A DNA stretch of 64,000 nucleotides from an uncultured Chitinophaga sp. (GTDB lineage: Bacteria > Bacteroidota > Bacteroidia > Cytophagales > Cyclobacteriaceae): positions 1 to 64,000 of the forward strand of contig CABHOK010000012.1 of NCBI GenBank assembly GCA_902168205.1, written 5' to 3'. Below are positions 42,759-57,554 of this stretch, in pieces. The number at the start of each line of letters is the position of its first letter. Positions within the stretch are counted from its first letter, which is position 1. Below the pieces are notes generated by a model that ran no database searches, had not been told where the DNA came from, and worked only from the letters and a program-made list of their open reading frames with translations. A program made the position numbers and the translations under genes.

Positions 42759-42890
42759 CCGGGTAGAAATTCTCCACCTGAACACTTTCTCCCCGTACTA
42801 CATTCCTGAAACATTCGAAATTTACGCTGAAAGCAGAAAATAAAATGGTATGCATTTTGGAATTGGCCTTCTCAGAAAAGGTACAACAAA

Positions 42891-43160: not shown

Positions 43161-43176
43161 CACTAAAAACATTTTT

Positions 43177-43560
43177 ATGGTACGAAGTACAAAAGTCAAC
43201 TCAATCAAAAACGGTAAATGGAAAGAGTTCAACAAACACGCTGTGCTCATAGCAGAGGGAGTATATGTTAACAACAAGAAGCATGGTACATGGAGAGAAT
43301 ATTACGATCACACCGGTACCATTATGATCGAAGAAGATTTTCTCTATGGCATTCAACATGGACGGTTTATTTCGTACCACCCGAATGGACAGGTTTTCAG
43401 TCAGGGAGAATTTCACCACGGACGCAGAGAAGGTTACTTCCGGGTATATGATGAAGCCGGTAACAATACCAAGCTTCTGTTTTTTATAAATAATGTTCAA
43501 ATCCAGGAGTTCCACCAATTTATACATACCAGTGAAAGAGCACGGGAGAACAAATGTTGA
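43177..43560 (+). CDS. MORN-repeat-like (YwqK-type antitoxin-fold) protein
   Basis: 127 residues from ATG 43177; a frame reaching 43081 overlaps the preceding gene and is not protein-like. Repeated units of about 23 residues: NGKWKEFNKHAVLIAEGVY, NNKKHGTWREYYDHTG, YGIQHGRFISYHPNGQVFSQGEF and HGRREGYFRVYDEAG. These match the MORN/YwqK antitoxin-type beta hairpin repeats. The name is historical; no toxin gene is adjacent. The end overlaps the small membrane ORF in another frame. Confidence 0.75.
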   Translation: MVRSTKVNSIKNGKWKEFNKHAVLIAEGVYVNNKKHGTWREYYDHTGTIMIEEDFLYGIQHGRFISYHPNGQVFSQGEFHHGRREGYFRVYDEAGNNTKLLFFINNVQIQEFHQFIHTSERARENKC

Positions 43561-43624
43561 CTACATCTTGATTTTTATTGTCGCGCTCTTCGCGATCACG
43601 GCTATACTTCGTGCATTTGGTTAA
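43493..43624 (+). CDS. Candidate 43-residue single-pass membrane protein
   Basis: ATG 43493 to TAA 43622-43624, overlapping the end of the MORN-like gene by 68 bases in a different frame. The first 24 residues are polar (MFKSRSSTNLYIPVKEHGR), then DYILIFIVALFAITAILRAFG is one transmembrane helix ending just before the stop. Small, not certain; codon use past the overlap looks coding. A shorter form from GTG 43532 would keep the helix. No homologue can be named. Confidence 0.4.
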   Translation: MFKSRSSTNLYIPVKEHGRTNVDYILIFIVALFAITAILRAFG

Positions 43625-43645
43625 ACCCTATATTTTTTAATTGAA

Positions 43646-44098
43646 ATGAAAAGAAGATTACTGATAATTGACAACGACAAGCAGCTCAACAAGATCAACG
43701 AAAAGATCCTGCACATGTCTGGTATGGTAAAGGAGTTACACATTACTTGCAACGGCCGGGATGCGCTGGAATATCTGATAGAGCGTGCCCAAAAAGAATA
43801 TCCTCTGCCGGACATTATAATTTTTGACATAGAGATGCCGGTACTGAACGGCTTTGAATTCATGGATGAATTTCAACGACTGGACATTCCCGGTAAAGCG
43901 CATATTGAATTGGTGATCTTTACATCATCCAGCAACCCGCGCGACAAACAGAAGGCATCCGCCAAAGGCATCCGGCATTACCTGAGCAAGCCGTACTTGC
44001 TGCGGGGGCTCAGCGATATAATCTTCAGACTTGATATAGAGCAATCCAATCTATACCCGAACCGAAATCCATTCGGACTGGAGCGATCGCTGTCGTAG
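43646..44098 (+). CDS. Single-domain response regulator (CheY-like)
   Basis: 150 residues. Receiver fold: LLIIDNDKQLNKINEKIL, with the phospho-acceptor Asp in IIIFDIEMPVLNGFEF, Ser/Thr switch VIFTSSSNPRDKQ and Lys in HYLSKPY. The acidic pocket pair is D-N-D rather than D-D. No output domain. It probably works in the phosphorelay of the upstream kinase or controls another protein; its partner is unknown. Sequence from AAA-rich spacing upstream gives ATG 43646. Confidence 0.88.
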   Translation: MKRRLLIIDNDKQLNKINEKILHMSGMVKELHITCNGRDALEYLIERAQKEYPLPDIIIFDIEMPVLNGFEFMDEFQRLDIPGKAHIELVIFTSSSNPRDKQKASAKGIRHYLSKPYLLRGLSDIIFRLDIEQSNLYPNRNPFGLERSLS

Positions 44099-44136
44099 CA
44101 TTGTGCCGGATAACTTTCGTTATCTATCTTTAGCAC

Positions 44137-44595
44137 ATGTTTACACGCGAGCAGTCGTCACGTATACGACAGGAATTCTGGACAGTCTTCGGCAAGTACA
44201 TGAGTCCCATTCTCTCGGCCGAAGGACTGAAAGTCAATTGGGTTAATTATCATACTTCGATCAAGGATATTTATTTTCGGATGGATGCAGGCCCCGGGTC
44301 TGCCATGATCTCCATATCACTGGAACACAACGATGCGGGTATACGCGCATTGTATTTCGAACAATTCGAAGCATTCAAGCTTATCCTGCACGAAACGCTG
44401 GAGGAAGAATGGCTTTGGCAACAGGATGTATCCGTAAACAACAAAGTGATCAGCCGGGTCTATACAGAGTTGCCGGATGTCTCTATATTCAACAAAGATC
44501 ATTGGCCCGACCTGATCTCTTTCTTCAAACCCCGCATCATCGCGCTAGACAACTTCTGGGAAAACGCGAAGTATACCTTTCAGATGCTGAAGTAG
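44137..44595 (+). CDS. DUF4268 family protein
   Basis: 152 residues. Matches the Bacteroidota DUF4268 pattern: FTREQSSRIRQEFWTVFGKY at the start, VNWVNYHTSIKDIYFRMDAG, ISISLEHNDAGIRALYFEQF, EALKL-like helix before LEEEWLWQQD and IFNKDHWPDLISFFKPRIIA at the end. Family members resemble PD-(D/E)XK nuclease-like or restriction-associated folds but without known activity here. No toxin, methylase or restriction gene is adjacent. Function unknown. Confidence 0.8.
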   Translation: MFTREQSSRIRQEFWTVFGKYMSPILSAEGLKVNWVNYHTSIKDIYFRMDAGPGSAMISISLEHNDAGIRALYFEQFEAFKLILHETLEEEWLWQQDVSVNNKVISRVYTELPDVSIFNKDHWPDLISFFKPRIIALDNFWENAKYTFQMLK

Positions 44596-44977
44596 TAACA
44601 TTGTATCAATCTTGCAACTTCCACACGTTACAACGTATACCATAGGTAAAAGCACCTGATTTATGAGGTAAATATATACCGACTGAGATGCACAGTCAGT
44701 ATATATTGACATGACTTGTTTAAACCTTCACTTATTTCATTCTTCACATGAAAGTAAATTCTAAACCTTTTATCGTTCAGATTTTGTAGCTTGAAGAAAA
44801 TTCAATCAGTCATCTGATCGATCTTAACGGGTGCTTCAAAAAAAAATAGTAACTATGCCGACACGATAACCAGGGCAATTTAGCTGAACAATTTCATTGT
44901 CCCACGGCACCACTACCCGCAAACAACACACACTTCACATCCCTCCTTTCCTACCGTTAGCAATAGTATATTAAAAA
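44596..44977. other. Intergenic region before LuxR gene
   Basis: AT-rich spacer of about 380 bases with one notable inverted repeat (44671-44707, listed separately) and no credible open frame. The last part, 44880-44977, is likely the LuxR promoter. Confidence 0.5.
44671..44707. promoter_or_regulatory. 15-bp inverted repeat
   Basis: Left arm AATATATACCGACTG and right arm CAGTCAGTATATATT, one mismatch, 7-nt loop. No T-run follows on plus, so it may be a protein binding site or processing hairpin rather than a terminator. It lies 271 bases upstream of the LuxR-type gene. Confidence 0.55.
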
Positions 44978-45598
44978 ATGTTAAATGTAACTTTAAGTTC
45001 TCCACCAATGCGTTACACCGTACAAAACATGATGATCGATGGCAGGCAATACATAGTCCTTTCCATTGAAATCCAAACGAACACTTCCATTGAACAGTTA
45101 TCGGGTACTGCCCTGCGGTATGAAGATTATAACTTCGTGCTGCTAACATTCAATTGCCATACAAGACCGTTCCTTGAATTAGCGTATTTTGTTATTTTTC
45201 TTTCCAGGAGAACAAGCGTCTTGATTTCATCTGATCACTGGTTAAAACCTTTTTCATCCTTCCTTAAAAGAATCGGACTATCAGGAATGTTATGTTATCA
45301 ACCGGCTGCCAATAGTTTTACTATATATGATTATACATTTATAGCACACAAAGACAGTCGCTTTCCTGAAATCCTCGATAGCCTGAAAGAACTCAGTATC
45401 GCTGAAATTGAAATACTCTTTTTTCTATCCATTGGATATTCAAACACTAAAATATCCGGTATACTTTGCAGAAGTTACCACACCGTTAAAAATCACAAAG
45501 TAAATATTGCAAGAAAGGCAGGCCTGGATGGATGCAGTCAGCTTCCCTACTTCGCAAGTCAATTACGAGACGCTGCTACCTGTATTGCCGTTAGTTGA
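44978..45598 (+). CDS. LuxR-type HTH regulator
   Basis: 206 residues. The N-terminal 130 residues have no recognised domain; an acyl-homoserine-lactone or PAS domain is not evident. The C-terminal 65 residues are a LuxR helix-turn-helix: ELSIAEIEILFFLSIGYSNT, KISGILCRSYHTVKNHKVNI, ARKAGLDGCSQLP. It overlaps the sulfotransferase gene by 71 bases in another frame. The pair stands just upstream of the peptide cluster and could regulate it (inference). Confidence 0.85.
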   Translation: MLNVTLSSPPMRYTVQNMMIDGRQYIVLSIEIQTNTSIEQLSGTALRYEDYNFVLLTFNCHTRPFLELAYFVIFLSRRTSVLISSDHWLKPFSSFLKRIGLSGMLCYQPAANSFTIYDYTFIAHKDSRFPEILDSLKELSIAEIEILFFLSIGYSNTKISGILCRSYHTVKNHKVNIARKAGLDGCSQLPYFASQLRDAATCIAVS

Positions 45599-46586
45599 TT
45601 GGTATACTAAATTCTTCCCGGACATGTCAAAACCTCATTATATACCTGTGCACCTCGACCTTCCCGGTGAGAAGATCCGGTGGATGGACGTTGACCGTTT
45701 CCCGGATCTTCCTATGATGAACTCTTCAGCGATCTCTGTTCGGGAAGAATTTACACTGGAAACAACGCTGAATGTGCTGGCTACTTTGAATGCGCTTCCC
45801 GGAAGACCATGTGGATTTATATTCCATACTTCCCGGTGCGGCTCTACCCTTCTTGCCCGGATGCTGCACGGATCGGCAGATATACTCGCCTTCAATGAAC
45901 CCCAACCTGTAAACGCATTACTGGTAAACTATACTAAATCTGGTTATACCAAAACTGATTGGGCGTGGGAACAACGTGGCAACAAATTATTACAAAATTT
46001 ACTAAGCACTTATTTATACTCTGGCAAAAAGATCTTCATCAAATTCTCAAGCTTCAATCTCCTGGTGTTGAACAGAATTATACAGTTATGGCCGGATGTG
46101 CCTATTGTATTTTTATATCGAAATCCCATCGAAGTGGTTGTCTCAAACCTCGAGAAGCAGGGCGGGTTTCTTCTAAAGCGGCACAACCCATTGCTGAAGT
46201 ATATACTGCATCAATGCAACCTGGAATTACCAGATTACCTGACCGATGAAGCCTACTGCGTAAAAATGATTGGCGCGTTCTTCAGAATTATACTTGAACA
46301 CTTAAAGAATGCAGATCGATCCAAAGTTCTTGCCGTTGATTACGAGAGCATTTCCCCAGATACTGTGCCTAACATACTTCGTTTTTTTGGGCTGGAAGTT
46401 ACAGAAGCCAAACGCGATGCTATATATGCCGGAATGACGAATAATGCTAAAAACGGAACACCTTTCCAAAAAGATATAGCGTCCAAACACGCGAGGGCGA
46501 GCAAAACAATCCTTACCCTTTGCGAGCAATTTGCCTTTGAGAATTACCATGCGTTGAAACAATACTCGCAGTTCGTTAGCCGATAG
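45528..46586 (+). CDS. Sulfotransferase-family protein
   Basis: 352 residues from ATG 45528 (an upstream TTG at 45507 adds 7). PAPS-binding 5' loop: FIFHTSRCGSTLLARMLHG at about 97-115, and 3' phosphate motif IVFLYRNPIEVVVSNLEK at about 190-207; the Arg and Ser are both present. The N-terminal 95 residues (DWYTKFFPDMSKPHYIPVHL) and the C-terminal part (LAVDYESISPDTVPNILRFF) fit the Bacteroidota sulfotransferase/kinase-like family. It transfers sulfate from PAPS to a hydroxyl or amine; substrate unknown. Its location next to the peptide cluster is suggestive only: the candidate peptide has no tyrosine. Confidence 0.8.
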   Translation: MDAVSFPTSQVNYETLLPVLPLVDWYTKFFPDMSKPHYIPVHLDLPGEKIRWMDVDRFPDLPMMNSSAISVREEFTLETTLNVLATLNALPGRPCGFIFHTSRCGSTLLARMLHGSADILAFNEPQPVNALLVNYTKSGYTKTDWAWEQRGNKLLQNLLSTYLYSGKKIFIKFSSFNLLVLNRIIQLWPDVPIVFLYRNPIEVVVSNLEKQGGFLLKRHNPLLKYILHQCNLELPDYLTDEAYCVKMIGAFFRIILEHLKNADRSKVLAVDYESISPDTVPNILRFFGLEVTEAKRDAIYAGMTNNAKNGTPFQKDIASKHARASKTILTLCEQFAFENYHALKQYSQFVSR

Positions 46587-46621
46587 TACATATATATACT
46601 ACGTCACTATTAATTTCATTT

Positions 46622-46637
46622 TAGTAATATTTTACTA
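46622..46637. promoter_or_regulatory. Short inverted repeat upstream of peptide gene
   Basis: TAGTAA-TATT-TTACTA, a 6-bp palindrome with a 4-nt centre, 78 bases before the peptide start. It is AT-rich and could be chance; a regulator site is possible. Confidence 0.25.
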
Positions 46638-46714
46638 GCTCTTCCTGCGGACGGCTATCAATATTTGCCAGTACAGAATTCTGTGTAACATTTTTCACCC
46701 AAAACCCTAAAATT

Positions 46715-46921
46715 ATGGAAAAGGAAAAATTGATGAAAGTTGTGCGCAACCCCAAAGCGCAGGTAGCATTAAGCCTAGCAGTAGCATCGCTGTCAATGGC
46801 AATCCCACAAATCTCCAGCAGCCATTGTCCGGAGGGAGATCAGAATGACTGCGACAGAATAAGCGGATCAGACGAGGCTCATTGCGTAGTAGCGATCGAT
46901 TTCTGGGATGATTGCATCTGA
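46715..46921 (+). CDS. Candidate secreted peptide precursor, four-cysteine tail
   Basis: 68 residues from ATG 46715. Basic N-terminus (MEKEKLMKVVRNPK), a hydrophobic stretch (QVALSLAVASLSMAIP, about 16-31) and a serine cleavage region (QISSS), then an acidic tail from His37 to Ile68 with four cysteines at 38, 46, 57 and 67 (spacing C-x7-C-x10-C-x9-C) and nine D/E residues. No tyrosine is present. This is the layout of a signal-peptide-led secreted peptide. It lies 55 bases before an operon holding a signal peptidase and an exporter-like permease. It is unlike named families I recognise; it may be distantly like the small secreted peptides of Bacteroidota propeller loci (inference). Confidence 0.65.
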   Translation: MEKEKLMKVVRNPKAQVALSLAVASLSMAIPQISSSHCPEGDQNDCDRISGSDEAHCVVAIDFWDDCI

Positions 46922-46976
46922 CATCCCTGTATTGTGAAGAATCATTTGAACATGTTTAATTCATTCTGACGGTCCG

Positions 46977-48194
46977 ATGAAAAGAGAACGAAAAAGAAAA
47001 ATTATGAAGAAGCTGATCCCTATACTTATAGTTATATTTTTCGTTCTCTTGATCGGCCGTGCGTACCATACGCTATATTATTTTTCAACCACCAGCATGG
47101 CGCAGGTTCCAATTGAAAAAATTGATTCATTTGCTCTCGCTGTTACTGATTCTCTCGTACTTCCACTGGATAGTATGACAAGCCCGGGAGTGGCTGTAAA
47201 TGAACAGTATATCTCGTTTGAGGGGAAATCGAACCTGGCATTCCTGAACTTCGTATCGCGGAATATATACCTATACGATTTGCACCACAACGCTATAATA
47301 AACGTCATTCATCTCGATTCACTGGGATTTTCCGCAGAGGATGGTGTGCAGGGATTTTGTATGATAGCGCCTGATTCGCTGCTGATCTATAGTTACAAAA
47401 AATCGCGTTGGACACTGATACATGAGCAAAAGGGGAAACTCGCTCAAGGCGATATGGGTATGGACAAACATTCCTTCCTTACAGTTTACCCTTTTGTGAC
47501 TACGTACGCTCCTATGCAATACGACCGCGAGAACAAGCAGGTATATTTCACAGGACCATCTACCGCATTCGGAGATTATACCCGTGACAAGCAACGAAAT
47601 GTACTGATAAGCCTGAACTTGCAAACCGGACAGGCCACAAACCATGTAAACTACCCGGAAACATACTGGCAAGCCAACTGGGGCGGTCTGGCTGGATTCG
47701 AGAGATTATCCTATTGTTTAAATCCAACGGATGGGCTACTGGTATTCAGCTTCATGGCAGATCACACGCTTACAATTTACAATACGAAAGACGGAAGTAT
47801 CGATCACGCAATTGCACCCAGCACTTTCTTCACCCCACTGAAATCATTCGATTTTCACCCGATGCTGGTTGACTTTCACAAACCGGAAATAGAACAACGC
47901 TATGCACAAAGTTTCGCATACCTCAATATAGTATACGACCCTTATCGAAAGATGTACTACCGGTTTACGGACTTCCCCAGTGACTCCGGCCAAAAGCAAA
48001 ATTCCATTATACTGCTAACGGATCGTTTCGAAAGAGTCGGAGAAATTGTACTGCCTGCGAACCGGTATAACATCAACAACTATTTCGTTTCAGAAACCGG
48101 TTTTTTTATAAAGCGAAAAGATGTCCATAAAGATGAATCCCTGGTGTATGATTGTTTTCAACCTGAGCACATTAAATCAGCAGACCATCCATGA
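46977..48194 (+). CDS. DUF4221-family propeller protein
   Basis: 405 residues (ATG 46977; a second ATG at 47004 gives the same protein without 9 basic residues). N-terminal membrane anchor (LIPILIVIFFVLLIGRAYHTLYY core), then a beta-propeller rich in short repeats: VAVNEQYISFEGKSNLAFLN, IYLYDLHHNAII, LLIYSYKKSRWTL, YDRENKQVYFTGPST and NSIILLTDRFERVGEIVLP; the end FVSETGFFIKRKDVHKDES is the DUF4221 signature. These proteins occur with small secreted peptides in Bacteroidota; their role is unknown. It overlaps the next gene by 4 bases. First gene of the operon. Confidence 0.75.
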   Translation: MKRERKRKIMKKLIPILIVIFFVLLIGRAYHTLYYFSTTSMAQVPIEKIDSFALAVTDSLVLPLDSMTSPGVAVNEQYISFEGKSNLAFLNFVSRNIYLYDLHHNAIINVIHLDSLGFSAEDGVQGFCMIAPDSLLIYSYKKSRWTLIHEQKGKLAQGDMGMDKHSFLTVYPFVTTYAPMQYDRENKQVYFTGPSTAFGDYTRDKQRNVLISLNLQTGQATNHVNYPETYWQANWGGLAGFERLSYCLNPTDGLLVFSFMADHTLTIYNTKDGSIDHAIAPSTFFTPLKSFDFHPMLVDFHKPEIEQRYAQSFAYLNIVYDPYRKMYYRFTDFPSDSGQKQNSIILLTDRFERVGEIVLPANRYNINNYFVSETGFFIKRKDVHKDESLVYDCFQPEHIKSADHP

Positions 48195-48691
48195 ATAACT
48201 ATATAGCATTCCGAACTTCACTGATTTACATACAGGCAATCCTGGTATGTATACTTCTTTGCATTACCGGTTGCCAATCGGGATCTGAGCGATCCGGGTA
48301 CCAGCAAGTCACTAGTGAGATATCGCGCATTTCAAAGAAAGACCTGAAAAAATACAAAGCCGTTTTTTTAATTCCCTTCTATGGATGCACGGGTTGTATT
48401 TCTACGGCAGAGAATTACCTGATCGTAAACTATGATGAAGGCAACAAGAAAAATATACTTTTCATTATCACTGGTCACGATTCGCTGAAATCTGCGAAGC
48501 TACGCCTTGGAGAAAAGGCAGCATCAAATCCCGATGTCTATATAGACACCGACAAGGTAATTGACTGGAATTACCTGAAGCAATACCCCAAACTATTACT
48601 GCTCCAAAACGGCCAGGTTATTTCCGAGAAGGAAGCCAGTGCCGATACACCTGATATATATAAAGATTTAGACAAAATAGCCAACTTATGA
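48191..48691 (+). CDS. Thioredoxin-like CxxC lipoprotein
   Basis: 166 residues. A lipoprotein signal with the cysteine in ITGCQSGSE at about residue 28. A motif FLIPFYGCTGCISTAENYLI gives a CxxC (C-T-G-C) at the start of a thioredoxin-like fold, followed by ILFIITGHDSLKSAKL, DVYIDTDKVIDW and PKLLLLQNGQVISEKEA. It is likely an outer-membrane or periplasmic thiol oxidoreductase. Its presence next to a four-cysteine peptide would fit disulfide handling (inference). It overlaps both neighbours by 4 bases, so it is in the operon. Confidence 0.7.
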   Translation: MNNYIAFRTSLIYIQAILVCILLCITGCQSGSERSGYQQVTSEISRISKKDLKKYKAVFLIPFYGCTGCISTAENYLIVNYDEGNKKNILFIITGHDSLKSAKLRLGEKAASNPDVYIDTDKVIDWNYLKQYPKLLLLQNGQVISEKEASADTPDIYKDLDKIANL

Positions 48692-49797
48692 AAACACTCG
48701 AGTCCATTCTCAATCCGATTTCCGTGAACGAATTTCTCACGAATAACTGGTGCAAGGTTCCGTTGTTCCTGGCAAAAAATGATACAACTGTAAATAACCT
48801 GATCACCATGGAAGATATAGGCGACCTTCTCGATTCCGAAATTCTGATCTACCCGTTTTTGCGCATGGTAGGCGGAGGCGCTGAACTTAATCGCGATCTA
48901 TATACCGCCAGTTCCATATCGGTGATGCAAACACTCGATCGCGGAAAAATACTGGATCTCTTCAACAAAGGAAATACTATTGTTCTTCAATCTCCCAATC
49001 TATACTTCCCAAAACTTGACAAATTTCTGGAAGACATTAGCCGCGAACTAGGTATGCGAGTTCACACCAATATATACATCACACCTGCCAACTCAAAAGG
49101 CTTTGATCCGCACGTAGACCCACATGAAGTTTTCGTGCTGCAGGTATATGGTAACAAAGTATGGAACCTGTATGATATCCCCTACGAGTCGCCTACCAAA
49201 AGCATTATGCTTACCAATGCCGATAAAGAAAGGTATAAATCCGGTCCGACCCACGCCATAAACCTGCAGGCCAATGATATACTCTATGTGCCGTGCGGAG
49301 TGGTACACGATGCCTACACTACAGATTCTCCTTCTATACATATTACCCTGGGTTTACACCCGTTACGAAAAATTGATATACTGGAGAAATTCGTGAAGGA
49401 GGCAGAGCAACATCCATTCTTCCGAAAATCATTCTTTCCGATACAGGATGAATTTGATTCCCGGGAATCACTTACCGAGCTGATACGCGAATCCACCAAA
49501 CTCATTGAAAACATAGTAACCACCTGCAATACAGAGCGCAACCTGAACATGGAGCAGGAACGGTATAGCGGTGTATTTAAAAATACCCTGACAATCGATA
49601 GCGTCAATACAGTTGAAGACATCAATACATTTCTGCAACATCATTCAAAAGACTCACAACACCAACAACATGTAACGGATCTGATGGAGGCTATTGAAAC
49701 TGGCAAGCTGTCTAATGCCACAGCTGCCACCATGGGCAAAATAAAATTCAAACTGAAAGATATGGTCAAGCAAGGTTCGTTGCAGATGGAACATTAA
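48688..49797 (+). CDS. JmjC/cupin-like oxygenase (2-oxoglutarate type)
   Basis: 369 residues. The family resembles bacterial ribosomal-oxygenase/cupin_4 proteins: LRMVGGGAELNRDLYTASS, HTNIYITPANSKGFDPHVD then PHEVFVLQVYGNKVWNLYD. The iron triad is HxD (H-V-D) in the DPHVDPHEVF segment and a distal His in YVPCGVVHDAYTT, DSPSIHITLG. C-terminal about 120 residues form a winged-helix-like part (TELIRESTKLIENIV). Expected to hydroxylate a protein or peptide side chain using 2-oxoglutarate and O2; the candidate peptide is the obvious local substrate (inference). Operon-coupled (4-base overlap with the lipoprotein). Confidence 0.78.
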   Translation: MKTLESILNPISVNEFLTNNWCKVPLFLAKNDTTVNNLITMEDIGDLLDSEILIYPFLRMVGGGAELNRDLYTASSISVMQTLDRGKILDLFNKGNTIVLQSPNLYFPKLDKFLEDISRELGMRVHTNIYITPANSKGFDPHVDPHEVFVLQVYGNKVWNLYDIPYESPTKSIMLTNADKERYKSGPTHAINLQANDILYVPCGVVHDAYTTDSPSIHITLGLHPLRKIDILEKFVKEAEQHPFFRKSFFPIQDEFDSRESLTELIRESTKLIENIVTTCNTERNLNMEQERYSGVFKNTLTIDSVNTVEDINTFLQHHSKDSQHQQHVTDLMEAIETGKLSNATAATMGKIKFKLKDMVKQGSLQMEH

Positions 49798-49801
49798 GCA
49801 C

Positions 49802-50653
49802 ATGAACTACTTCTATGAACACAATCGTGATGTGAGTATAGAACGTATCATCTCGCACACGGATGCTGACGGACAAATAAGACCATTGATTGAAGATCCT
49901 TCGCAGTTGTCTATACTGGAATGGGAGATCATTACGGGGCTTATCAGGCTGATTACCGATGTACTGCACCACACGGAATGGACTTTATATTTTAAACACC
50001 CCACGCTCCTGAAAAGTGGAAAGTATATATTTCCGGTGCTATTGGTGTCTCATTCAGCATCCGAAGATACGCAGACGACACACGCTTCCCTGTCTCGACA
50101 CGCCACTGCGTGGTTGCATGGAAGGTATATGTTTATTGAATATATTCAGATAAAGGTGATCACACGTGCAGCATTGGAAGCCTGCAGAAATCTTCAATTC
50201 CTGGTGAAGATCATTTACTTTCGGGTTGCCGGTATAGCAGTTGAATCTTCCTTTCGGAACTTCAGCATTGGACTGGATTCTATTCACCTGTTGCCACAAG
50301 TTCATCAACGTACAGAGGCGTTGCGGCAAGCGGCACGTACAACGGCAGCCGAAACGCTGAAGGCACACATACACTATATAATCCGACTGCTACTACGCGC
50401 AGCTTTTGAACTGGTGAGCGAGAAAGAAGGCATTTTCACCAGGGATGTAACAGTATGCACACAATCATTCTGTAAATATTACCCTGCATACTCGGCCTTG
50501 TCGCACACACTTTTATCGTACCTCACAACGCCTGGCTATACGCTGAGCGGCCTTTTACAATCTGTAACCGAATTTGAGACATTACTCATTGCGGAATATA
50601 ATAAGATCATTAACGAAAAAAAATCATGTTACTGGAAAAAGTTGAAGATATAG
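49802..50653 (+). CDS. Unrecognised protein of the peptide cluster
   Basis: 283 residues, ATG 49802, 4 bases after the cupin gene and overlapping the next gene by 28 bases. The N-terminal part (IRPLIEDPSQLSILEWEIITG) has no family match I know. The C-terminal part (GIFTRDVTVCTQSFCKYYPAYSALSH) resembles the helical substrate domain of some nucleotidyltransferases, but no GS-x-D-xD catalytic motif is seen. It is mostly helical without a signal peptide or membrane segment, so it is probably cytosolic. Possibly a substrate-recognition or modification factor for the peptide (inference only). Confidence 0.5.
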   Translation: MNYFYEHNRDVSIERIISHTDADGQIRPLIEDPSQLSILEWEIITGLIRLITDVLHHTEWTLYFKHPTLLKSGKYIFPVLLVSHSASEDTQTTHASLSRHATAWLHGRYMFIEYIQIKVITRAALEACRNLQFLVKIIYFRVAGIAVESSFRNFSIGLDSIHLLPQVHQRTEALRQAARTTAAETLKAHIHYIIRLLLRAAFELVSEKEGIFTRDVTVCTQSFCKYYPAYSALSHTLLSYLTTPGYTLSGLLQSVTEFETLLIAEYNKIINEKKSCYWKKLKI

Positions 50654-51735
50654 CAGTGCCCAAGGACACTCTACGTACAGTGCTGTGGCGATCCGTACGA
50701 ACGATTCTTTATACTGTGCTTGCCATCTATATACTCAGTATATTTATAATAGGGAACTTCAAGGTTACCGGTCCTTCAATGGAAGGAACGTTACTGGAAG
50801 GCGATCGAGTACTGGTCTCCAAGCTTCATTACGGTGCACGCATACCCAGGATATTGCAACTTCCCTGGATTGATCACAGCGGCCCACTGTTGGAGTATCT
50901 TAATCTGCGATTATACTCAAGTCCTATACTGCCGTATGTCCGAACCGGAGGCCTGTCGTCCTTAAAGCGTGGTGATATAGCCGTATTTAATCTTCCAATG
51001 CAGGGAGATGCTTACGAAATAAATGAAGTGATCAACAAGCGCATTGTTGCACTACCCGGTGACGTGATTGTCCTGAAGGACGGTATATTTTATTGTAACG
51101 ATCAACGCGAGGAAATCAACCGTGTAAGTTTTCGGCACGATCTTCGTACACGTGAAAAGCTGGATGCAGCCGAGGCTAAGCAATGGGGTATATATGATTT
51201 CAGAAACCAGGTTAGGCTATTGGAGAATCCCTTTATAAAAGACTACTTTCAGTACGAGATATATACCACTGCAACCCGGGCCAAAACTATCGAAAGAGAC
51301 GCGAACGCTCTAAAGGTGACGAGAAGAGAATCGGACACCTTTTCGGATTTCAACGCATACCCGCATTGGCTGCCTCTACATTGGAACAAGGACAATTTCG
51401 GAAAAATTACGATTCCCAGGAAAGGGATGACGCTGAAAATGGATGCAAATCACCTCGCACTTTATTTACCGGTCATTAAAGACCTGGAAGGCAACAACCG
51501 CGTTGAAGCCCGTGAAGGTATACTATACATCGATGATAAACCTGTAAAGGAGTATCAGTTCAAAAAAGACTACTACTTCGCACTGGGCGACAACCGCGAC
51601 AAATCGATGGACTCGCGTCATTGGGGATTTATACCGGAGGATCACATTATCGGGAAAGTCGTGCTCATCTATTTCTCCAAGGATATATACCGGAACGAAA
51701 TCCGATGGAACAGAATCTTTCAGTCTCCGCAGTAA
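50626..51735 (+). CDS. Signal peptidase I (S26)
   Basis: 369 residues. One N-terminal membrane helix (TILYTVLAIYILSIFIIGNF). Catalytic Ser in VTGPSMEGTLLEGDRVLVSK (about residue 51), box D NKRIVALPGDVIVLKDG with the general-base Lys at about 138, and box E ALGDNRDKSMDSRHWGFIP with IIGKVVLIYF. A domain of about 150 residues between boxes D and E is typical of Bacteroidota LepB. It is encoded within the peptide operon rather than with housekeeping genes, which suggests a dedicated peptidase for a cluster product. A second chromosomal LepB is to be expected. Confidence 0.9.
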   Translation: MLLEKVEDIAVPKDTLRTVLWRSVRTILYTVLAIYILSIFIIGNFKVTGPSMEGTLLEGDRVLVSKLHYGARIPRILQLPWIDHSGPLLEYLNLRLYSSPILPYVRTGGLSSLKRGDIAVFNLPMQGDAYEINEVINKRIVALPGDVIVLKDGIFYCNDQREEINRVSFRHDLRTREKLDAAEAKQWGIYDFRNQVRLLENPFIKDYFQYEIYTTATRAKTIERDANALKVTRRESDTFSDFNAYPHWLPLHWNKDNFGKITIPRKGMTLKMDANHLALYLPVIKDLEGNNRVEAREGILYIDDKPVKEYQFKKDYYFALGDNRDKSMDSRHWGFIPEDHIIGKVVLIYFSKDIYRNEIRWNRIFQSPQ

Positions 51736-51748
51736 AACTATAACCAGA

Positions 51749-54142
51749 TTGTTCCCTATGGAAATGCTAAAAAACTATATATTCATTGCTATTCGAAACC
51801 TGCTGAAACATAAATTCATTTCTATAGTCAACATCATTGGTCTTGCCACCAGCATGTCAGTCGGGCTGTTTGTATTGAGTATGGCCAAGAATGCTTTCGA
51901 TGTGGACAGCTTTCACCCGCACCCCGATCGCACGTATCGAATTATCACGAAGCAATTCATCAAGTCAGGCGACTCAGACTACTTTGCTACTTCACCTTAC
52001 CTGCTGGCCCATCATCTGAAAGAACATTACTCGTCCATAGAGCGAGTTACACGCGTTGTAACCGATGTAAATGAATCGGTAAAGATACAAGTCAACAATG
52101 AAGAATTTGAAACGGAAAATGTCTTTGCCGATCCTGATTTTTTCCAGGTATTCGGTTTCAAACTTGAGACAGGTGATCCGCTTCACGCATTGAGTAAACC
52201 GTATACTGCGATACTGAGTAAAGATGCAGCACATCGTCTCTTCGGCAGTACAAACCCGGTAGGCAAACCGTTGTCATTCGGCAAATACGGTGATTTTACG
52301 GTAACCGGTGTTATGCAAAAACCGGAATTCTCTTCCCGGATGGAGTATGATGTATATTTATCTATGGCAACGCTTCCTTCGCTTATGCAGTCCGGCAGTA
52401 TAGATATTCCAACAGGCTGGGGCGATATCTATAGCACGCAAACTTATGTTGTCACCAATGAAGACACTACGCCAGATGAACTGGACCGTATACTTACGGA
52501 AGCTGATGGCTATACCATGAAGCATGCTGTACTGCATGAAACCGTAGATCACCGGAATTTTATAGCTCAATCTCTTCGTGACCTTGTCTACTCGCCTACC
52601 CTGTATTTCGAGTCGCGCAATGCTCGCACGATACCCTATATACCGCTGATCATTTCCCTGCTGATGCTGCTGCTCGCAGCTTTTAATTACATGAACCTTA
52701 CGATTGCAAAAATATTCAGTCGCGTTAAAGAGATCGGTATTCGCAAAATATCCGGAGCAACAAAAATTCACCTCATTCACCAGTTTATTACGGAAGCCCT
52801 GTTGATTGCACTGATTTCCTTCGGACTCGCGTTGTTCCTCACCGATCTTATACCACTTACCAGCAATCTGGCACGAGAGGTAAATCAAACTCCCGACTTC
52901 ACACTCTTTACTGTGTTCTTTGTTTTTGCTCTGCTCACCGGCTTTGTCTGTGGTATCTTTCCATCCATCGCGTTATCCAAAGTAAAATTGACAACGGCAT
53001 TGAAGAATAAAATTACACAAGGAGAAGTACGCACACCGGTATGGCAAAAAGCTCTAATAACCATCCAGTTTTCAGTGTCGCTACTATTCATCACCGTATC
53101 CCTGGTCATGATTGGACAGACGCGCTATATTTCGCGGGCAGACTATGGTGTGAACCGAAGTAACATATTAAATATTACCATGCCTCCTGTTGATATTGCG
53201 TATTTCAAAAACGCATTGGAGCAAGAAACAACAGTGGAGCAGGTTGCAGCATCATCCGGTCGCCCTGTGTTTTCCCAACCGCTGTATTGCCGGGTTTATA
53301 ACCATCCTGATTCCATCGATGCTATATATTTCGCTGCAGATGAAAATTTTATTCCGGTTTACGGACTTACCCTGCTGGCAGGCACCAATTTCTCCGACCG
53401 AATGCGAGGCCGCCATGAGACAACCGTTTTAATCAATGAAGAAGCCGCCTCCCATCTCAAATACAAAACTCCCCTTGATGCTATCGGACAATTCATTACC
53501 ATCGATTCGCTATCTTTAAAAATTACCGGTGTCATCAAAAACTTCCATGTACAGGGACTCAAGCAGCCTATCAAACCATTTCTGCTCCGATATATACCCG
53601 AAAAATTCTCAACACTTACGCTAAAAACAAGATCCGGGGAGATGAATGGAACCTTGCAAAAAATTCAACAACTATCGGGCGCAGCCAAACGCGATTACCC
53701 GCTGGAGTATAGTATATTTGAAAACGACTTCCACAGCAACAATTTTATCAAGCTGGATGATTTCAAAATGATCAGTTTCCTTTCGTGCATCACCGTTCTG
53801 ATCTCTTCACTTGGACTTATCGGTATTGTTATGTTCCATGCCAAGGCCCGTGCCAGTGAAATCGGGATCCGGAAAGTTATGGGGGCGAATACACGCCAGA
53901 TCACCATTCTCATATCACGAAAATTTATATTGCTTCTTTTACTCGCCTGTTGTCTTGCATTACCGGTTTGCTATATCACATGCGAATCCATTCTCCAGGA
54001 ATATGCTTATCGAATACAACCGGGGTTGCTCTTGCACGCTATTGGTGTCGTAATCCTGTTGCTGATCGGCCTGGCAGTAATCTGCTCACAAACTATATAT
54101 GCAGCGCTCCGAAATCCCATCGAGGTAATTCGGTCAGAATAA
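51749..54142 (+). CDS. FtsX/MacB-type ABC permease, exporter of cluster
   Basis: 797 residues, 13 bases after the peptidase gene. TM1 FISIVNIIGLATSMSVGLFV, a MacB-like periplasmic domain (RVVTDVNESVKIQV), a three-helix FtsX block (FNYMNLTIAKIFSRVKEIGI), a second periplasmic domain and a last block (IVMFHAKARASEIGIRKVMG) with helices at the C-terminus. Unlike the permease at 34799 it has no PadR-associated N-domain and no PadR gene. The ATPase is not in the window. In this operon it is the natural candidate to export or process the peptide. A strong terminator follows. Confidence 0.88.
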   Translation: MFPMEMLKNYIFIAIRNLLKHKFISIVNIIGLATSMSVGLFVLSMAKNAFDVDSFHPHPDRTYRIITKQFIKSGDSDYFATSPYLLAHHLKEHYSSIERVTRVVTDVNESVKIQVNNEEFETENVFADPDFFQVFGFKLETGDPLHALSKPYTAILSKDAAHRLFGSTNPVGKPLSFGKYGDFTVTGVMQKPEFSSRMEYDVYLSMATLPSLMQSGSIDIPTGWGDIYSTQTYVVTNEDTTPDELDRILTEADGYTMKHAVLHETVDHRNFIAQSLRDLVYSPTLYFESRNARTIPYIPLIISLLMLLLAAFNYMNLTIAKIFSRVKEIGIRKISGATKIHLIHQFITEALLIALISFGLALFLTDLIPLTSNLAREVNQTPDFTLFTVFFVFALLTGFVCGIFPSIALSKVKLTTALKNKITQGEVRTPVWQKALITIQFSVSLLFITVSLVMIGQTRYISRADYGVNRSNILNITMPPVDIAYFKNALEQETTVEQVAASSGRPVFSQPLYCRVYNHPDSIDAIYFAADENFIPVYGLTLLAGTNFSDRMRGRHETTVLINEEAASHLKYKTPLDAIGQFITIDSLSLKITGVIKNFHVQGLKQPIKPFLLRYIPEKFSTLTLKTRSGEMNGTLQKIQQLSGAAKRDYPLEYSIFENDFHSNNFIKLDDFKMISFLSCITVLISSLGLIGIVMFHAKARASEIGIRKVMGANTRQITILISRKFILLLLLACCLALPVCYITCESILQEYAYRIQPGLLLHAIGVVILLLIGLAVICSQTIYAALRNPIEVIRSE

Positions 54143-54169
54143 GAAACCGAATCAAGCATATATACCAGG

Positions 54170-54202
54170 AACAAGGCACATCACAATGTGCCTTGTTCTT
54201 TT
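54170..54202 (+). terminator. Terminator of the peptide operon
   Basis: A perfect 12-bp hairpin, AACAAGGCACAT and ATGTGCCTTGTT around CACA, followed by CTTTT, 28 bases after the permease stop. Confidence 0.85.
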
Positions 54203-54228
54203 ATACCTTCGCTATTTCACCGTTGCTT

Positions 54229-54242
54229 ATGATTTTAATCAT
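54229..54242. promoter_or_regulatory. FNR/DNR-type palindrome upstream of ric
   Basis: ATGA-TTTTAA-TCAT, matching TTGA-N6-TCAA except at the outer base. Centre about 43 bases before the transcription start expected from the -7 element at 54265, the classical class II activator position. Confidence 0.6.
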
Positions 54243-54264
54243 ACCACTGGCAAAATCGGCTTTC

Positions 54265-54272
54265 TATTTTTG
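54265..54272 (+). promoter_or_regulatory. Bacteroidota -7 element of the ric promoter
   Basis: TATTTTTG matches TAnnTTTG exactly, 13 bases before ATG 54286. No good -33 TTTG is visible, as expected for an activator-dependent promoter. Confidence 0.5.
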
Positions 54273-54285
54273 AAGAAAAACATAT

Positions 54286-55008
54286 ATGAAAACCGATAAC
54301 AATATTATCAGCGATGATACTTTAACCGTAGCACAGCTGGCCATTTCCCACCCCGGAGCACTGTCTGTCTTTACACGCTATAACATTGACTATTGTTGTG
54401 GCGGACATCGTACGCTCACAGAAGCATGTCATCGTATCGGACTTGATCCGGAAAAGATCAGGGAAGAAATATATAGTCAGCAAACCGATTCACCAGATCA
54501 GTCTTTCAGACCCGAACGCTGGAGTTCCTCACTACTGGTAGACTTTATTATTCAAAATCACCATACGTATGTGAAACGTGCCATACCTGAACTCGAAGCA
54601 TTACTGGACAAAGTATGTCATCGGCATGGCGATGAAAGTATAGAGTTACTGAATATCCGTGAACGCTTTCTCGATCTGGCTGAAGACCTCACCAGTCACA
54701 TGGAGAAGGAAGAGCTCGTTCTTTTCCCGGCCATCAAAAGACTGGAAGCGAACAAAGCGGAAGACAACCCGCTGGCTATAACTATCCAGCCTCCTATTGC
54801 AGCTATGGAACATGAACACACCGCGGCCGGTGATCTGGTGAAGCAAATTCGCGTGCTGTCCAATAATTATACACCTCCGGAATATGCGTGTCCTACATTT
54901 CGTATTACATATCAGAAGCTGCAGGAATTCAGCAACGACCTCTTCAAGCATATACACCTGGAAAACAACATTCTGTTTGAACGGTATAAACACGTAACCG
55001 CACTGTAG
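54286..55008 (+). CDS. ric: Iron-sulfur cluster repair di-iron protein
   Basis: 240 residues. An N-terminal ScdA-type domain (1-65) with the signature HPGALSVFTRYNIDYCCGGH; then a hemerythrin-like four-helix domain with HHTYVKRAIPELEALL, HRHGDESIELLNI, LTSHMEKEELVLFP, AMEHEHTAAGDLV and FKHIHLENNILFERY, giving the His and Glu ligands of the di-iron centre. RIC/YtfE/ScdA repairs iron-sulfur clusters after nitric oxide or oxidative damage. First gene of the ric-nrdJ-crp run with an FNR-type site upstream, in line with NO or low-oxygen control. Confidence 0.94.
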   Translation: MKTDNNIISDDTLTVAQLAISHPGALSVFTRYNIDYCCGGHRTLTEACHRIGLDPEKIREEIYSQQTDSPDQSFRPERWSSSLLVDFIIQNHHTYVKRAIPELEALLDKVCHRHGDESIELLNIRERFLDLAEDLTSHMEKEELVLFPAIKRLEANKAEDNPLAITIQPPIAAMEHEHTAAGDLVKQIRVLSNNYTPPEYACPTFRITYQKLQEFSNDLFKHIHLENNILFERYKHVTAL

Positions 55009-55038
55009 TCCTGACCACGTTTTAATATTGGAAAGTAT

Positions 55039-56889
55039 ATGCAGCTTAACCAACGTATTCTGAGTGACCTGATCATTCACATGAAGTATGCCCGGTATAT
55101 ACATGAATTTCAACGCAGGGAGTTATGGCCGGAGATATGTGAACGTTATGCAACGATGCTGATCAAACGGTATCCGGCCATGGAAGAAGAAATACGATCG
55201 CAGATGAGATTCGTGCTCGACAAGAAAGTACTGCCTTCCATGCGTGCCATGCAATTTGCCGGCACTGCTATAGAACGAAACAACAGCCGGATATATAACT
55301 GTGCCTATATGCCTGTGGATGATATACGTGCATTTTCGGAAGCTATGTTTCTTTTACTCGGTGGTACAGGCGTTGGCTTCTCGGTTCAGACGGAGCATAT
55401 AGACAACCTCCCTCCTATACGCAAGGCCGTGAAGCGAAAGAGATTTCTGGTTGGCGATAGCCTGGAAGGTTGGGCCGATGCTGTAAAAGTACTGATGAAA
55501 GGATACTTCGGTATCAGCAATTATATACCGGATTTTGATTACTCCGATATACGCACCAAGGGAGCACGGCTGGTAACCGCGGGTGGCAAGGCACCGGGAC
55601 CAGAACCTTTGAAACTATGTATTGCACATTTAACAGCGATACTGGATCGTAAAGTTGATGGTGAAAAACTTTCACCCCTGCAGTGTCATGACATGATGTG
55701 TCATATCGCCAATGCCGTGCTGGCAGGCGGTATACGAAGATCAGCCATGATATCGCTATTCTCCTATCACGATGAAGAAATGCTAACGTGTAAATTTGGT
55801 AACTGGTGGGAACTGAATGAACAACGGGGGCGTGCCAACAATTCGGTTGTGCTTCCGAGAGACACGACTACGCGAGAAGATTTTTTAAGTCTCTGGAAAA
55901 AGATCGAATTGTCCGGCTCCGGTGAACCAGGTTTTTATTTCACCAACCATACTGACTGGGGCACTAATCCTTGTTGTGAAATAGCGTTAAGACCTTTTCA
56001 GTTCTGCAACCTGTGTGAGGTAAATGCTTCTGATATTGAAAGTCAGGAAGATCTCAACGCTCGGGCGGCCGCGGCTTCTTTCTTTGGAACACTTCAGGCG
56101 GGTTTTACAAATTTTCATTACCTGCGCGAAATATGGAAAACTACTACGGAACAGGAAGCATTGATCGGTGTAGGCATGACGGGTATAGCCAGTGGAAAGA
56201 TCTTTCAATTTGATCTGAAGGAAGCAGCTGATGTTGTAAAGAAGACAAACCTGCATACATCATCGAAAATAAATATACAGTTTGCCGCACGCTGCACCAC
56301 CATTAAACCCTCGGGAACATCTTCCATTGTACTGGGCACTTCGTCCGGCATTCACGCCTGGCATAACGATTATTACCTGCGCAGGGTACGCATTGGTAAA
56401 AATGAGGCTCTATATATATACCTGAAAGAAAAACACCCGGAGTTACTGGAAGATGATTTTCTCAATTCCCGGCAGGGGGTGATCTGTATACCGCAGATGG
56501 CTCCCGAAGGATCGATCCTGCGGACGGAGCGTGCGATGGACCTGCTTCAACGAATCAAAAAGTTTAATACGGAATGGGTGCGTAACGGATATCGGAATGG
56601 AAGCAATGCGAACAACGTATCGGCTACGGTAAGCATTAAAGAACACGACTGGACAAGCATTGGCGACTGGATGTGGGAGAATAAAGCTTCATACAACGGA
56701 CTTAGCGTATTGCCATTCGACAATGGTAATTATAAACAGGCGCCCTTCGAAGACATTACGAAAGATGAATTCGAGCGACTGGAAAAATCGCTTCGTGAAC
56801 TTGATCTTTCAAATGTGTTTGAACCCGATGATGAGACCGACCTCCAGGCTGAAGCTGCCTGTGCAGGTGGTGCATGTACCCTTATGTAA
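55039..56889 (+). CDS. nrdJ: Adenosylcobalamin-dependent ribonucleotide reductase (class II)
   Basis: 616 residues, monomeric RTPR-type rather than the longer dimeric NrdJ. Active-site elements: NNSRIYNCAYMPVDD (substrate-side Cys), NPCCEIALRPFQFCNLCEVN (N-x-C-x-E radical site and partner Cys), VGMTGIASG and IKPSGTSSIVLGTSSGIH. The C-terminal CAGGAC has the two redox cysteines spaced five apart as in the Lactobacillus enzyme. It makes deoxynucleotides without oxygen, using B12, which suits an organism that denitrifies or lives microaerobically. No cobalamin riboswitch was seen before it; it is 30 bases after ric, so likely one operon. Confidence 0.92.
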   Translation: MQLNQRILSDLIIHMKYARYIHEFQRRELWPEICERYATMLIKRYPAMEEEIRSQMRFVLDKKVLPSMRAMQFAGTAIERNNSRIYNCAYMPVDDIRAFSEAMFLLLGGTGVGFSVQTEHIDNLPPIRKAVKRKRFLVGDSLEGWADAVKVLMKGYFGISNYIPDFDYSDIRTKGARLVTAGGKAPGPEPLKLCIAHLTAILDRKVDGEKLSPLQCHDMMCHIANAVLAGGIRRSAMISLFSYHDEEMLTCKFGNWWELNEQRGRANNSVVLPRDTTTREDFLSLWKKIELSGSGEPGFYFTNHTDWGTNPCCEIALRPFQFCNLCEVNASDIESQEDLNARAAAASFFGTLQAGFTNFHYLREIWKTTTEQEALIGVGMTGIASGKIFQFDLKEAADVVKKTNLHTSSKINIQFAARCTTIKPSGTSSIVLGTSSGIHAWHNDYYLRRVRIGKNEALYIYLKEKHPELLEDDFLNSRQGVICIPQMAPEGSILRTERAMDLLQRIKKFNTEWVRNGYRNGSNANNVSATVSIKEHDWTSIGDWMWENKASYNGLSVLPFDNGNYKQAPFEDITKDEFERLEKSLRELDLSNVFEPDDETDLQAEAACAGGACTLM

Positions 56890-56890
56890 C

Positions 56891-56904
56891 CTGATAAAAA
56901 TCAT
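56891..56904. promoter_or_regulatory. FNR/DNR-type palindrome upstream of Crp/Fnr gene
   Basis: CTGATAAAAATCAT; the core TGAT-AAAA-ATCA is exactly the FNR half-site arrangement. It lies 2 bases past the nrdJ stop and 15 bases before the Crp/Fnr start at 56919, a position that would allow autorepression. Confidence 0.6.
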
Positions 56905-56918
56905 AGTATATAAATGAA

Positions 56919-57554
56919 ATGGGATACAATTTGCAGAAACGAAAATCTAAAAAGGTGTTCCCATCTAAAGTATTGGAAAAATACCACGCCCGGTTAGTTA
57001 CGCTGAAGAAGGATCAGATTCTGTTTCAGGAAAGTGATACTGCCTCTGATTACTTCCAGGTAGAATCAGGTGTGGTTAAAATGTATATCGTCAATGACGA
57101 TGGACAGGAATTTATACAAGGTATATTTCACGCGGGCGAGAGCTTTGGTGAACCGGCTCTTATAGCCAGGTTTCCATATCCGGGAAGTGTTATGGCTATT
57201 GAACCGGCAAAAGTATGGAAACTTCCGGGAGGTTATTTCCTGCGGATGTTACAGGAAAATTTCGATCTGCACATGAAGATGGATGAAGTTCTATGTCAGC
57301 GTCTCAAATATAAATCCATGGTGCTCTCCGAAATATCCAGTCATGAACCTGAACACCGTATACTTTCATTGCTGAAATACTATAAGACCAAAAATCATCC
57401 TTCGAAAGAAACACCTGGCCGAGTAACTATTCCCTATACCCGGCAGCAGCTTGCTGATATGAGCGGCCTGCGGGTTGAGACCGTTATACGAACCGTAAAG
57501 AAAATGGAGAAGGATAAAAAACTGATCCTCGAAGGACACAAGATCCGTTTTTAA
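56919..57554 (+). CDS. Crp/Fnr-family transcription regulator
   Basis: 211 residues. A cyclic-nucleotide-binding-type sensor domain (SDTASDYFQVESGVVKMYIV, FHAGESFGEPALIARFPYPG) and a long dimer helix, then a Crp-type HTH (IPYTRQQLADMSGLRVETVI, RTVKKMEKDKKLIL). No N-terminal iron-sulfur cysteine cluster is seen, so it is not a canonical FNR; it may sense NO or redox by another means. An ATG at 56914 is in a different frame. It is preceded and possibly repressed by its own site and is the likely regulator of ric-nrdJ and the minus-strand gene at 57611. Confidence 0.9.
   Translation: MGYNLQKRKSKKVFPSKVLEKYHARLVTLKKDQILFQESDTASDYFQVESGVVKMYIVNDDGQEFIQGIFHAGESFGEPALIARFPYPGSVMAIEPAKVWKLPGGYFLRMLQENFDLHMKMDEVLCQRLKYKSMVLSEISSHEPEHRILSLLKYYKTKNHPSKETPGRVTIPYTRQQLADMSGLRVETVIRTVKKMEKDKKLILEGHKIRF

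Follow-up and report, generated by a model that had tools for sequence, protein, structure and literature searches.

The window analysed here, a 64,000-nucleotide stretch of an uncultured Chitinophaga sp. (order Cytophagales; contig CABHOK010000012.1, positions 1 to 64,000), carries at 44594–54227 a block of genes that we regard as probably a self-contained cassette for a secreted peptide resembling the ribosomally synthesized and post-translationally modified peptides (RiPPs), one that would be exported by the Sec pathway and folded by disulfides; its chemical steps, their order and the role of the product are what we infer. We favour this reading because six genes follow homologous peptides in the same order in two families, and because the peptide gene is present in all four operons found and is under purifying selection. 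It is also favoured because 11 of the 13 other loci with a strong homologue of the cassette's JmjC oxygenase lie near RiPP genes, with a JmjC precedent in the available part of the biphenomycin study (PMC12707348), because the signal peptidase I gene is the second of its genome and MacAB-TolC-type exporter genes lie near the related operon of genome G486, and because cysteine-rich leader peptides precede genes of the DUF4221 family far above background, with a sharp peak at four cysteines.

All features described below lie on the forward strand. The precursor gene (46715–46921) encodes 68 amino acids, a leader followed by a four-cysteine tail. Behind it lie genes for a DUF4221 protein (46977–48194, start possibly at 47004; PF13970, 51.9 bits against a cut-off of 23.4), a CxxC lipoprotein (C66 and C69; 48191–48691), a JmjC_2 oxygenase of the MINA53/NO66-like type (48688–49797; PF08007, 84.3 bits against 22), a nucleotidyltransferase-like protein of 283 amino acids (49802–50653), a signal peptidase I (50626–51735; Peptidase_S26, 123.1 against 22.9, and TIGR02227, 117.2 against 47) and a MacB/FtsX-type permease (51749–54142, starting with TTG at 51749 or ATG at 51758; PF12704 (MacB_PCD), 116.5 bits, and PF02687 (FtsX), 70.4 bits). 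The peptide and DUF4221 genes are 55 bp apart. The first-pass annotation, made from the letters alone, had placed seven reading frames here, and its overlaps of 4 (DUF4221–lipoprotein), 4 (lipoprotein–JmjC) and 28 bases (283-residue protein–signal peptidase) and gaps of 4 (JmjC–283-residue protein) and 13 bases (signal peptidase–permease) were reproduced exactly. Its family calls (DUF4221, JmjC, signal peptidase I, MacB/FtsX) are borne out by scores above the curated cut-offs. The peptide, the lipoprotein and the 283-residue protein have no Pfam or NCBIfam match at E ≤ 1.

The peptide combines a leader of about residues 1–31, with an RNPKxQ motif and a hydrophobic stretch, and a tail with cysteines at C38, C46, C57 and C67. 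In the two other operon-carrying genomes of the genus it is 91% identical, near the best conserved product, the JmjC protein (92%), and followed by the permease and an upstream LuxR-type regulator (89%); the conservation of the frame that the earlier proposal had called for is thus observed. Compared with the copy in Ohtaekwangia koreensis (locus L005), the ratio of non-synonymous to synonymous substitution rates (dN/dS) of the peptide gene is 0.072, from 18.0 synonymous and 7.0 non-synonymous differences. Only JmjC (0.051) and the permease (0.058) are lower, and the LuxR-type gene equals it (0.072); the lipoprotein (0.090), signal peptidase (0.095), 283-residue protein (0.103), DUF4221 protein (0.121) and an upstream sulfotransferase (0.186) follow. 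For these values the window's LuxR frame was begun 33 bp inside and its sulfotransferase frame one codon past the ATG, matching the starts in the relatives. The peptide gene is under purifying selection and behaves as a real gene, and the 283-residue protein is also maintained by selection. The conservation, the dN/dS value and the homologue in G486 described next reject a chance short frame.

G486, from another family of the same order, came to light when 241 genomes of the order were searched with a JmjC profile, eight of them giving a match. Its operon reads peptide, peptide, DUF4221, CxxC lipoprotein, JmjC, nucleotidyltransferase-like protein and signal peptidase I. Identities to the window proteins (MAFFT) are 32% and 30% for the peptides, 30% for the 283-residue protein, 34% for DUF4221, 36% for the signal peptidase, 37% for JmjC and 39% for the lipoprotein. 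BLASTP gave E-values of 1.3e-8 for the peptide (z 9.2 against shuffles), 1.2e-27 for the nucleotidyltransferase-like protein and values between 7e-34 and 5e-91 for the other operon proteins. The peptides share the leader motif R-N/D-P-K-x-Q, the four tail cysteines and an Asp before the second and fourth of them. The similarity of the leaders was reached by 5 of 5000 shuffles, that of the tails by none of 5000 shuffles holding the cysteines fixed. A short precursor gene with conserved leader and core, as expected of a RiPP, is therefore found in two lineages. The DUF4221 proteins of the window lineage and G486 form a single clade (support 100/98, 77 rows), and the JmjC proteins also form one (93/95, narrowly missing the tool's star; 20-row tree with several very long branches). 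Both clades join the two lineages, as expected for an operon that descended or travelled as a unit. The next genes in G486 encode a UDP-glycosyltransferase and a family-2 glycosyltransferase, and a LytTR-like regulator and a kinase were noticed by eye. In the vicinity are a fusion protein, an outer-membrane efflux protein, an ATP-binding cassette (ABC) ATPase and two permeases, of which the one tested is of the FtsX/MacB type.

The six-gene operon was found in four genomes (G000, G004, G005 and G486). The peptide gene accompanies it in all four, with two copies in G486, so that the co-occurrence proposed by the first-pass annotation holds and an operon lacking the peptide in relatives is rejected. 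With the 283-residue protein as marker, the set is present in three of seven genomes of the genus (within 59 genomes); with the peptide as marker, in 3 of 98 relatives, all of the window's genus. A three-row profile of the 283-residue protein matched only its own genome among 395 genomes of the phylum, its reach to the G486 type not being established, and a five-row peptide profile, run on 153 genomes of the family, matched none apart from G000 and G004. An order-wide JmjC rescan (390 genomes) added lasso-type loci and no further such operon, and none was found in the phylum scan (395 genomes) or in eight genomes of G486's family.

The JmjC protein has the HxD...H arrangement of Fe(II)/2-oxoglutarate oxygenases: H142, D144 and H207, which we take to be the iron ligands, are invariant in a four-row alignment. 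Its matches in the PDB start at 1.3e-16, and its closest solved relatives are MINA53 (MINA) and NO66. We surveyed JmjC matches of at least 90 bits outside the genus from the phylum (395 genomes) and order (390 genomes) scans, leaving out weaker matches of 17.9–31 bits. This gave 14 loci, one of them G486. Near the JmjC gene in 11 of the other 13 lies a RiPP precursor or synthase recognised by a hidden Markov model: an NHLP leader in L051, L052, L053, L085 and L086, LANC_like in L055 (about 1.7 kb off), Lant_dehydr in L087 and also in L052, DUF4135 with a sub-cut-off NHLP leader in L088, an FlmA-family precursor in L054, and Asn_synthase with PqqD in L145 and L146. The remaining two loci have short frames seen by eye only, an Asp/Gly-repeat peptide frame immediately 5' of the JmjC gene in L083 (9255–9479) and a 57-residue frame with Gly-Gly in L084. 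The operon thus contains a modifying enzyme from a family associated with RiPPs, and the idea of a modified peptide, already present in the first-pass annotation, is strengthened, hydroxylation itself being something that we infer.

Some of these neighbourhoods deserve mention in their own right. L145 (5159–11498) and L146 (2945–10063) are lasso-type loci (Asn_synthase, PqqD and a sub-cut-off HPr-kinase match) that also carry a JmjC oxygenase and a sulfotransferase-like gene; their products are possibly hydroxylated or sulfated lasso peptides. The protein adjoining the JmjC gene in L145 is 26% identical over 269 amino acids to the window's sulfotransferase, its own Sulfotransfer_3 match being below the cut-off. 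In L054 (4268–11666), three JmjC-like genes in tandem lie next to two FlmA-type precursors, one of which was scanned. Precursors of this type are described in the accessible portion of PMC12703449, and L054 also encodes a UPF0489 protein with motifs like those of the peptide arginases published there.

The other operon proteins were examined individually. The DUF4221 protein, named a propeller in the first-pass annotation, has one N-terminal hydrophobic segment. In a 17-member alignment of the lipoprotein, the lipobox Cys, G65, both cysteines of the CxxC motif and D119 are invariant, and P133 is nearly so. Its PDB matches at E ≤ 1 are all weak; 7 of 12 are named thioredoxin or thiol-disulfide proteins, including the best one (thioredoxin oxidoreductase, E 0.0029), and the lipoprotein is probably thioredoxin-like. 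The 283-residue protein, listed as unrecognised in the first-pass annotation, appears by its sequence to be a degenerate nucleotidyltransferase-like protein: a G-S...D-x-D motif, which we take to be the catalytic motif of nucleotidyltransferases (AadA/ANT fold), is present in the G486 homologue and missing in all three copies of the genus. Sequence searches gave no firm match among solved structures, and in a structural comparison, which argues against no fold family, HEPN-type helical proteins scored the same Z as AadA. The signal peptidase, above the TIGR02227 cut-off, has conserved SM and KR motifs, presumably the Ser/Lys catalytic motifs of signal peptidase I, and only one other Peptidase_S26 frame was found in the window's genome (on contig C3).

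The unit is larger than the six genes and the peptide of the first-pass annotation, whose genes and order stand; a LuxR-type regulator and a sulfotransferase (44978–46586) belong to it as well. The regulator (GerE type, 206 amino acids, 44978–45598; PF00196, 28.4 bits against 23.5) occupies the same position in O. koreensis and in L004, a locus of the metagenome-derived genome G005, which is placed in the window's genus. The sulfotransferase (45624–46586; PF13469, 40.2 bits against 27), whose start was set by comparison with these two loci, is kept in both. We include the two genes in the block because their order is retained in both loci. The whole cassette has no counterpart in the otherwise collinear locus L158 of the close relative G001: window positions 42003–44593 and 54228–56995 match L158 at 82–83% nucleotide identity, and there the two flanks are only about 192 bp apart with no cassette sequence in between (BLASTN). 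The alignment with O. koreensis begins at 44128 and breaks off at 54142; the two therefore have the left neighbour in common but not the right flank. In L005 (4554–4784), an apparent remnant of the window's 44137–44595 gene borders the O. koreensis cassette on its left. Downstream of the permease, a terminator-like hairpin of 15 pairs followed by T-rich sequence (54167–54200; fold of 54150–54230, -23.9 kcal/mol, z -5.6) probably closes the unit. The O. koreensis that carries the cassette is a deposited strain, DSM 25262.

The peptide, the DUF4221 protein and the CxxC lipoprotein also form a wider module in the Cytophagales. DUF4221 is present in 43 of 241 genomes of the order. In loci from these genomes and from the window's relatives, we counted short same-strand frames at most 450 bp upstream that have a positively charged hydrophobic leader and at least three cysteines. 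They precede 42 of 96 distinct DUF4221 frames and 15 of 420 other genes located there (odds ratio 21, Fisher p 1e-22, kinship not corrected); the loci were selected by a DUF4221 search and are phylogenetically non-independent, and the 15 background matches may include some genuine such peptides. DUF4221 frames identical in the last 200 residues or with less than 460 bp upstream had been dropped before the 96 were counted. Among DUF4221 frames without another DUF4221 gene directly before them, the proportion is 42 of 75; with an alternative frame filter, such short frames preceded 34 of 80 DUF4221 genes and 12 of 386 others. When the cysteine filter was omitted, tails with 0, 1, 2, 3, 4, 5, 6 and 7 cysteines were found 3, 4, 4, 1, 33, 2, 8 and 1 times before DUF4221, while before other genes those with 0, 1, 2, 3, 4, 5, 6 and 8 were found 15, 16, 9, 3, 6, 3, 3 and 1 times. 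The peak at four and the second one at six point to paired disulfides. Peptide and DUF4221 occur together in 21 of the 39 genomes represented, and a lipoprotein of the same family follows DUF4221 in 29 of 96 cases, 24 of which also have the peptide (the profile for DUF4221 had been built from 14 members and that for the lipoprotein from 15, all taken from the loci themselves and the window). Across 87 loci, some of them overlapping and 84 containing DUF4221, the profiles for JmjC and the nucleotidyltransferase match three loci each, only those of this operon; the signal peptidase profile matches four, the fourth being in G003, a genome of the window's genus. The first-pass interpretation as a peptide system is thus supported, with the correction that its peptide–DUF4221–lipoprotein core is a widespread module mostly without JmjC or signal peptidase.

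The module comes in several settings. The triplet recurs in L090–L097 and others of L099–L133, with mostly four-cysteine peptides, very variable tails and, in L090, several copies in a row; seven of these peptides were scanned and gave no Pfam or NCBIfam match above the cut-off. In G003 (L168, 4465–9430), a six-cysteine leader peptide is followed by DUF4221, the lipoprotein, a Wzy_C O-antigen-ligase-type protein with TPR repeats and signal peptidase I, possibly a glycosylated version of the set. Genes for UDP-glycosyltransferases downstream of peptide sets in two bacterial families (L050, 5377–6765; L090, 6757–8124 and 10339–11712) are likewise a hint at glycosylated peptides. AcrB-type pumps (ACR_tran) of the resistance-nodulation-division (RND) class are found in six of eight peptide–DUF4221 loci of 18–20 kb (L091, L092, L093, L094, L096 and L097), a count without background rate; they may export the triplet peptides. 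L089 (8972–17000) contains seven head-to-tail DUF4221 genes and no detected peptide gene.

Known systems resemble the cassette in part. Among 10 proteins scanned between 44978 and 55005, no LanB/LanM/LanC-type synthetase was found, which rejects a lanthipeptide. Lasso peptide clusters have an asparagine-synthase-like cyclase and a transglutaminase-like protease, and neither is among the same 10 proteins, so that this class is rejected too. The NHLP and FlmA precursor families (TIGR03793, NF052472) are rejected as well, since neither the window peptide nor the one G486 peptide scanned of two has an NCBIfam match at E ≤ 1. The NVEALA peptide family, whose model was not confirmed to be in the library, gave no Pfam match at E ≤ 1 to the window peptide or to either G486 copy. 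The permease belongs to the same MacB/FtsX superfamily as the darobactin exporter DarB (NF038008), membership of which is rejected by its score (142 bits against a cut-off of 700). The Cytophagales triplets share a leader with a mostly four-cysteine tail, DUF4221 and CxxC lipoprotein in the same order; they differ in having no JmjC or nucleotidyltransferase match and a signal peptidase only in G003. The Bacteroidota JmjC_2 homologues near NHLP, lanthipeptide, lasso-type and FlmA-type genes are a further likeness. In the part of PMC12707348 available, the biphenomycin pathway (BipG) likewise encodes a JmjC oxygenase alongside a ribosomal precursor, and the enzyme hydroxylates ornithine in the RiPP core. 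Unlike that pathway as given there, the cassette has no MNIO (multinuclear non-heme iron-dependent oxidative enzyme), radical SAM, arginase or TldD protease; its peptide has a Sec-type leader and a four-cysteine tail, and it encodes a signal peptidase I of its own. The excerpted account of ChrA and the DAG-RiPP DybA (PMC12636315) describes modified precursors whose secretion-signal leader is cut by signal peptidase (predicted type I for ChrA), but with MNIO enzymes and a CPxCxMG motif where the cassette has JmjC, a cluster-encoded signal peptidase and four cysteines. TMcin, as far as the sections seen of PMC13252029 go, has a hydrophobic precursor that loses its leader and is exported by an ABC system, and a disulfide that needs a CXXC protein encoded in the cluster; it differs in its host (Staphylococcus), a site-2-type protease, a transmembrane helix retained in the product and the lack of any named oxygenase. 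The JmjC–RiPP link and secretion-signal leaders each have a precedent, whereas no publication describing the combination or the wider module was found. This agrees with the first-pass statement that no described family has exactly these parts; the search covered open-licence PMC only, which is weak evidence of absence, and within the same limits no literature was found on DUF4221 or NVEALA. A Bacteroidales RiPP mining study (PMC10352776) does not mention propeller, DUF4221, signal peptide, JmjC, cupin or 6-bladed.

We propose the following sequence of events. The LuxR-type regulator would control production of the 68-residue precursor. In the cytoplasm, the JmjC oxygenase would act on it, directed by the leader motif RNPKxQ and joined by the nucleotidyltransferase-like protein, which would be another enzyme in G486 and a non-catalytic partner in the window. 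Hydroxylation of a core residue would be the most likely change, with the invariant Asp before Cys46 and before Cys67 as candidates, and the sulfotransferase could optionally cap the hydroxyl. Passage through Sec would then depend on the hydrophobic part of the leader, which the private signal peptidase I would cut off. Next, the CxxC lipoprotein may assist in making or proof-reading two disulfide bonds within the four-cysteine tail, while the membrane-anchored DUF4221 protein may hold, chaperone or sense the peptide. Finally, the MacB/FtsX-type exporter would release a mature peptide of about 37–39 residues as a bacteriocin or signal. Secretion-signal RiPP leaders and CXXC proteins that make disulfides, as reported in the available sections of PMC12636315 and PMC13252029, make such a mechanism plausible.

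Several observations weigh against this reading. The distribution of the operon is sparse. The peptide–DUF4221–lipoprotein core usually lacks JmjC and signal peptidase, and five DUF4221–lipoprotein pairs, including L169 of G006 from the window's genus, have no peptide detected by our rule. MINA and NO66 act on proteins, not on small secreted peptides. No ATPase gene adjoins the permease in the window. Neither a sulfotransferase nor a LuxR gene was seen by eye in 40 kb around the G486 operon; together with the motif lost from the window's nucleotidyltransferase-like protein, this indicates that these parts are not essential to the shared chemistry. A consensus scan for promoters and terminators returned 26 and 7 sites against 25.1 and 8.0 in shuffles, the hairpin at 54167–54200 not being among them. 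The cleavage site is ambiguous; Ser27-Met-Ala29 may fit. The Q-rule for Bacteroidetes signal peptidase sites (PMC10653852) may hold for several of the triplet peptides and, with less clarity, for Q32 of the window peptide.

Three other explanations must be considered. The peptide could be antibacterial, with DUF4221 or the lipoprotein for self-protection and export through FtsX/MacB or RND-type pumps, a possibility to which we give somewhat less than an even chance. The ACR_tran pumps in six of the eight 18–20 kb loci and the absence of the cassette from the close relative G001 would fit; however, the pump count has no background rate, and L089 has tandem DUF4221 genes without a detected peptide. 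It seems unlikely that the cassette is instead a peptide-sensing circuit in which the peptide serves as a signal or reports on the envelope, DUF4221 is the receptor for it in the periplasm and LuxR the output. A LuxR gene does head the cassette in three genomes, a LytTR-like regulator and a histidine kinase stand beside the G486 operon (by eye) and no immunity gene is obvious, but the LuxR protein has no sensor domain recognised in a Pfam scan, no LuxR gene was seen near the G486 operon, and the wide differences between the tails of different species are more typical of weapons than of a shared signal. Least probable of the three is a secreted, disulfide-folded peptide that stays chemically unmodified while JmjC and the nucleotidyltransferase-like protein are co-regulated and serve a different target, be it a ribosomal protein, an envelope protein or a glycan: the triplet is common without JmjC, the closest solved relatives of the JmjC protein are MINA53 and NO66, and glycan enzymes are repeatedly found close to loci of this kind (UDPGT in L050 and L090, Wzy_C in L168), yet JmjC and the peptide are the best conserved products, the position of JmjC is kept in both lineages and RiPP genes are found near 11 of the 13 other strong JmjC homologues.

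Returning to the modified, Sec-exported peptide, we tentatively suggest, at rather less than even confidence, that the Cytophagales possess a general factory, so far undescribed, for Sec-exported, disulfide-folded four-cysteine mini-proteins, onto which maturation enzymes of various kinds are bolted. The window would hold the RiPP version, which hydroxylates the peptide, and perhaps sulfates or nucleotidylates it, before Sec export and the cut by the private signal peptidase I, and whose leader unites a recognition motif for tailoring enzymes with a signal sequence. Searches for known RiPP synthetases would miss such a cassette. If our reading is true, it would offer a testable RiPP pathway with the unusual logic of modification before Sec export and a private signal peptidase, open to a simple mass-spectrometry test in O. 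koreensis DSM 25262. It would also give DUF4221, a family without an assigned function, its first functional hypothesis, and would reveal a large hidden pool of four-cysteine secreted peptides.

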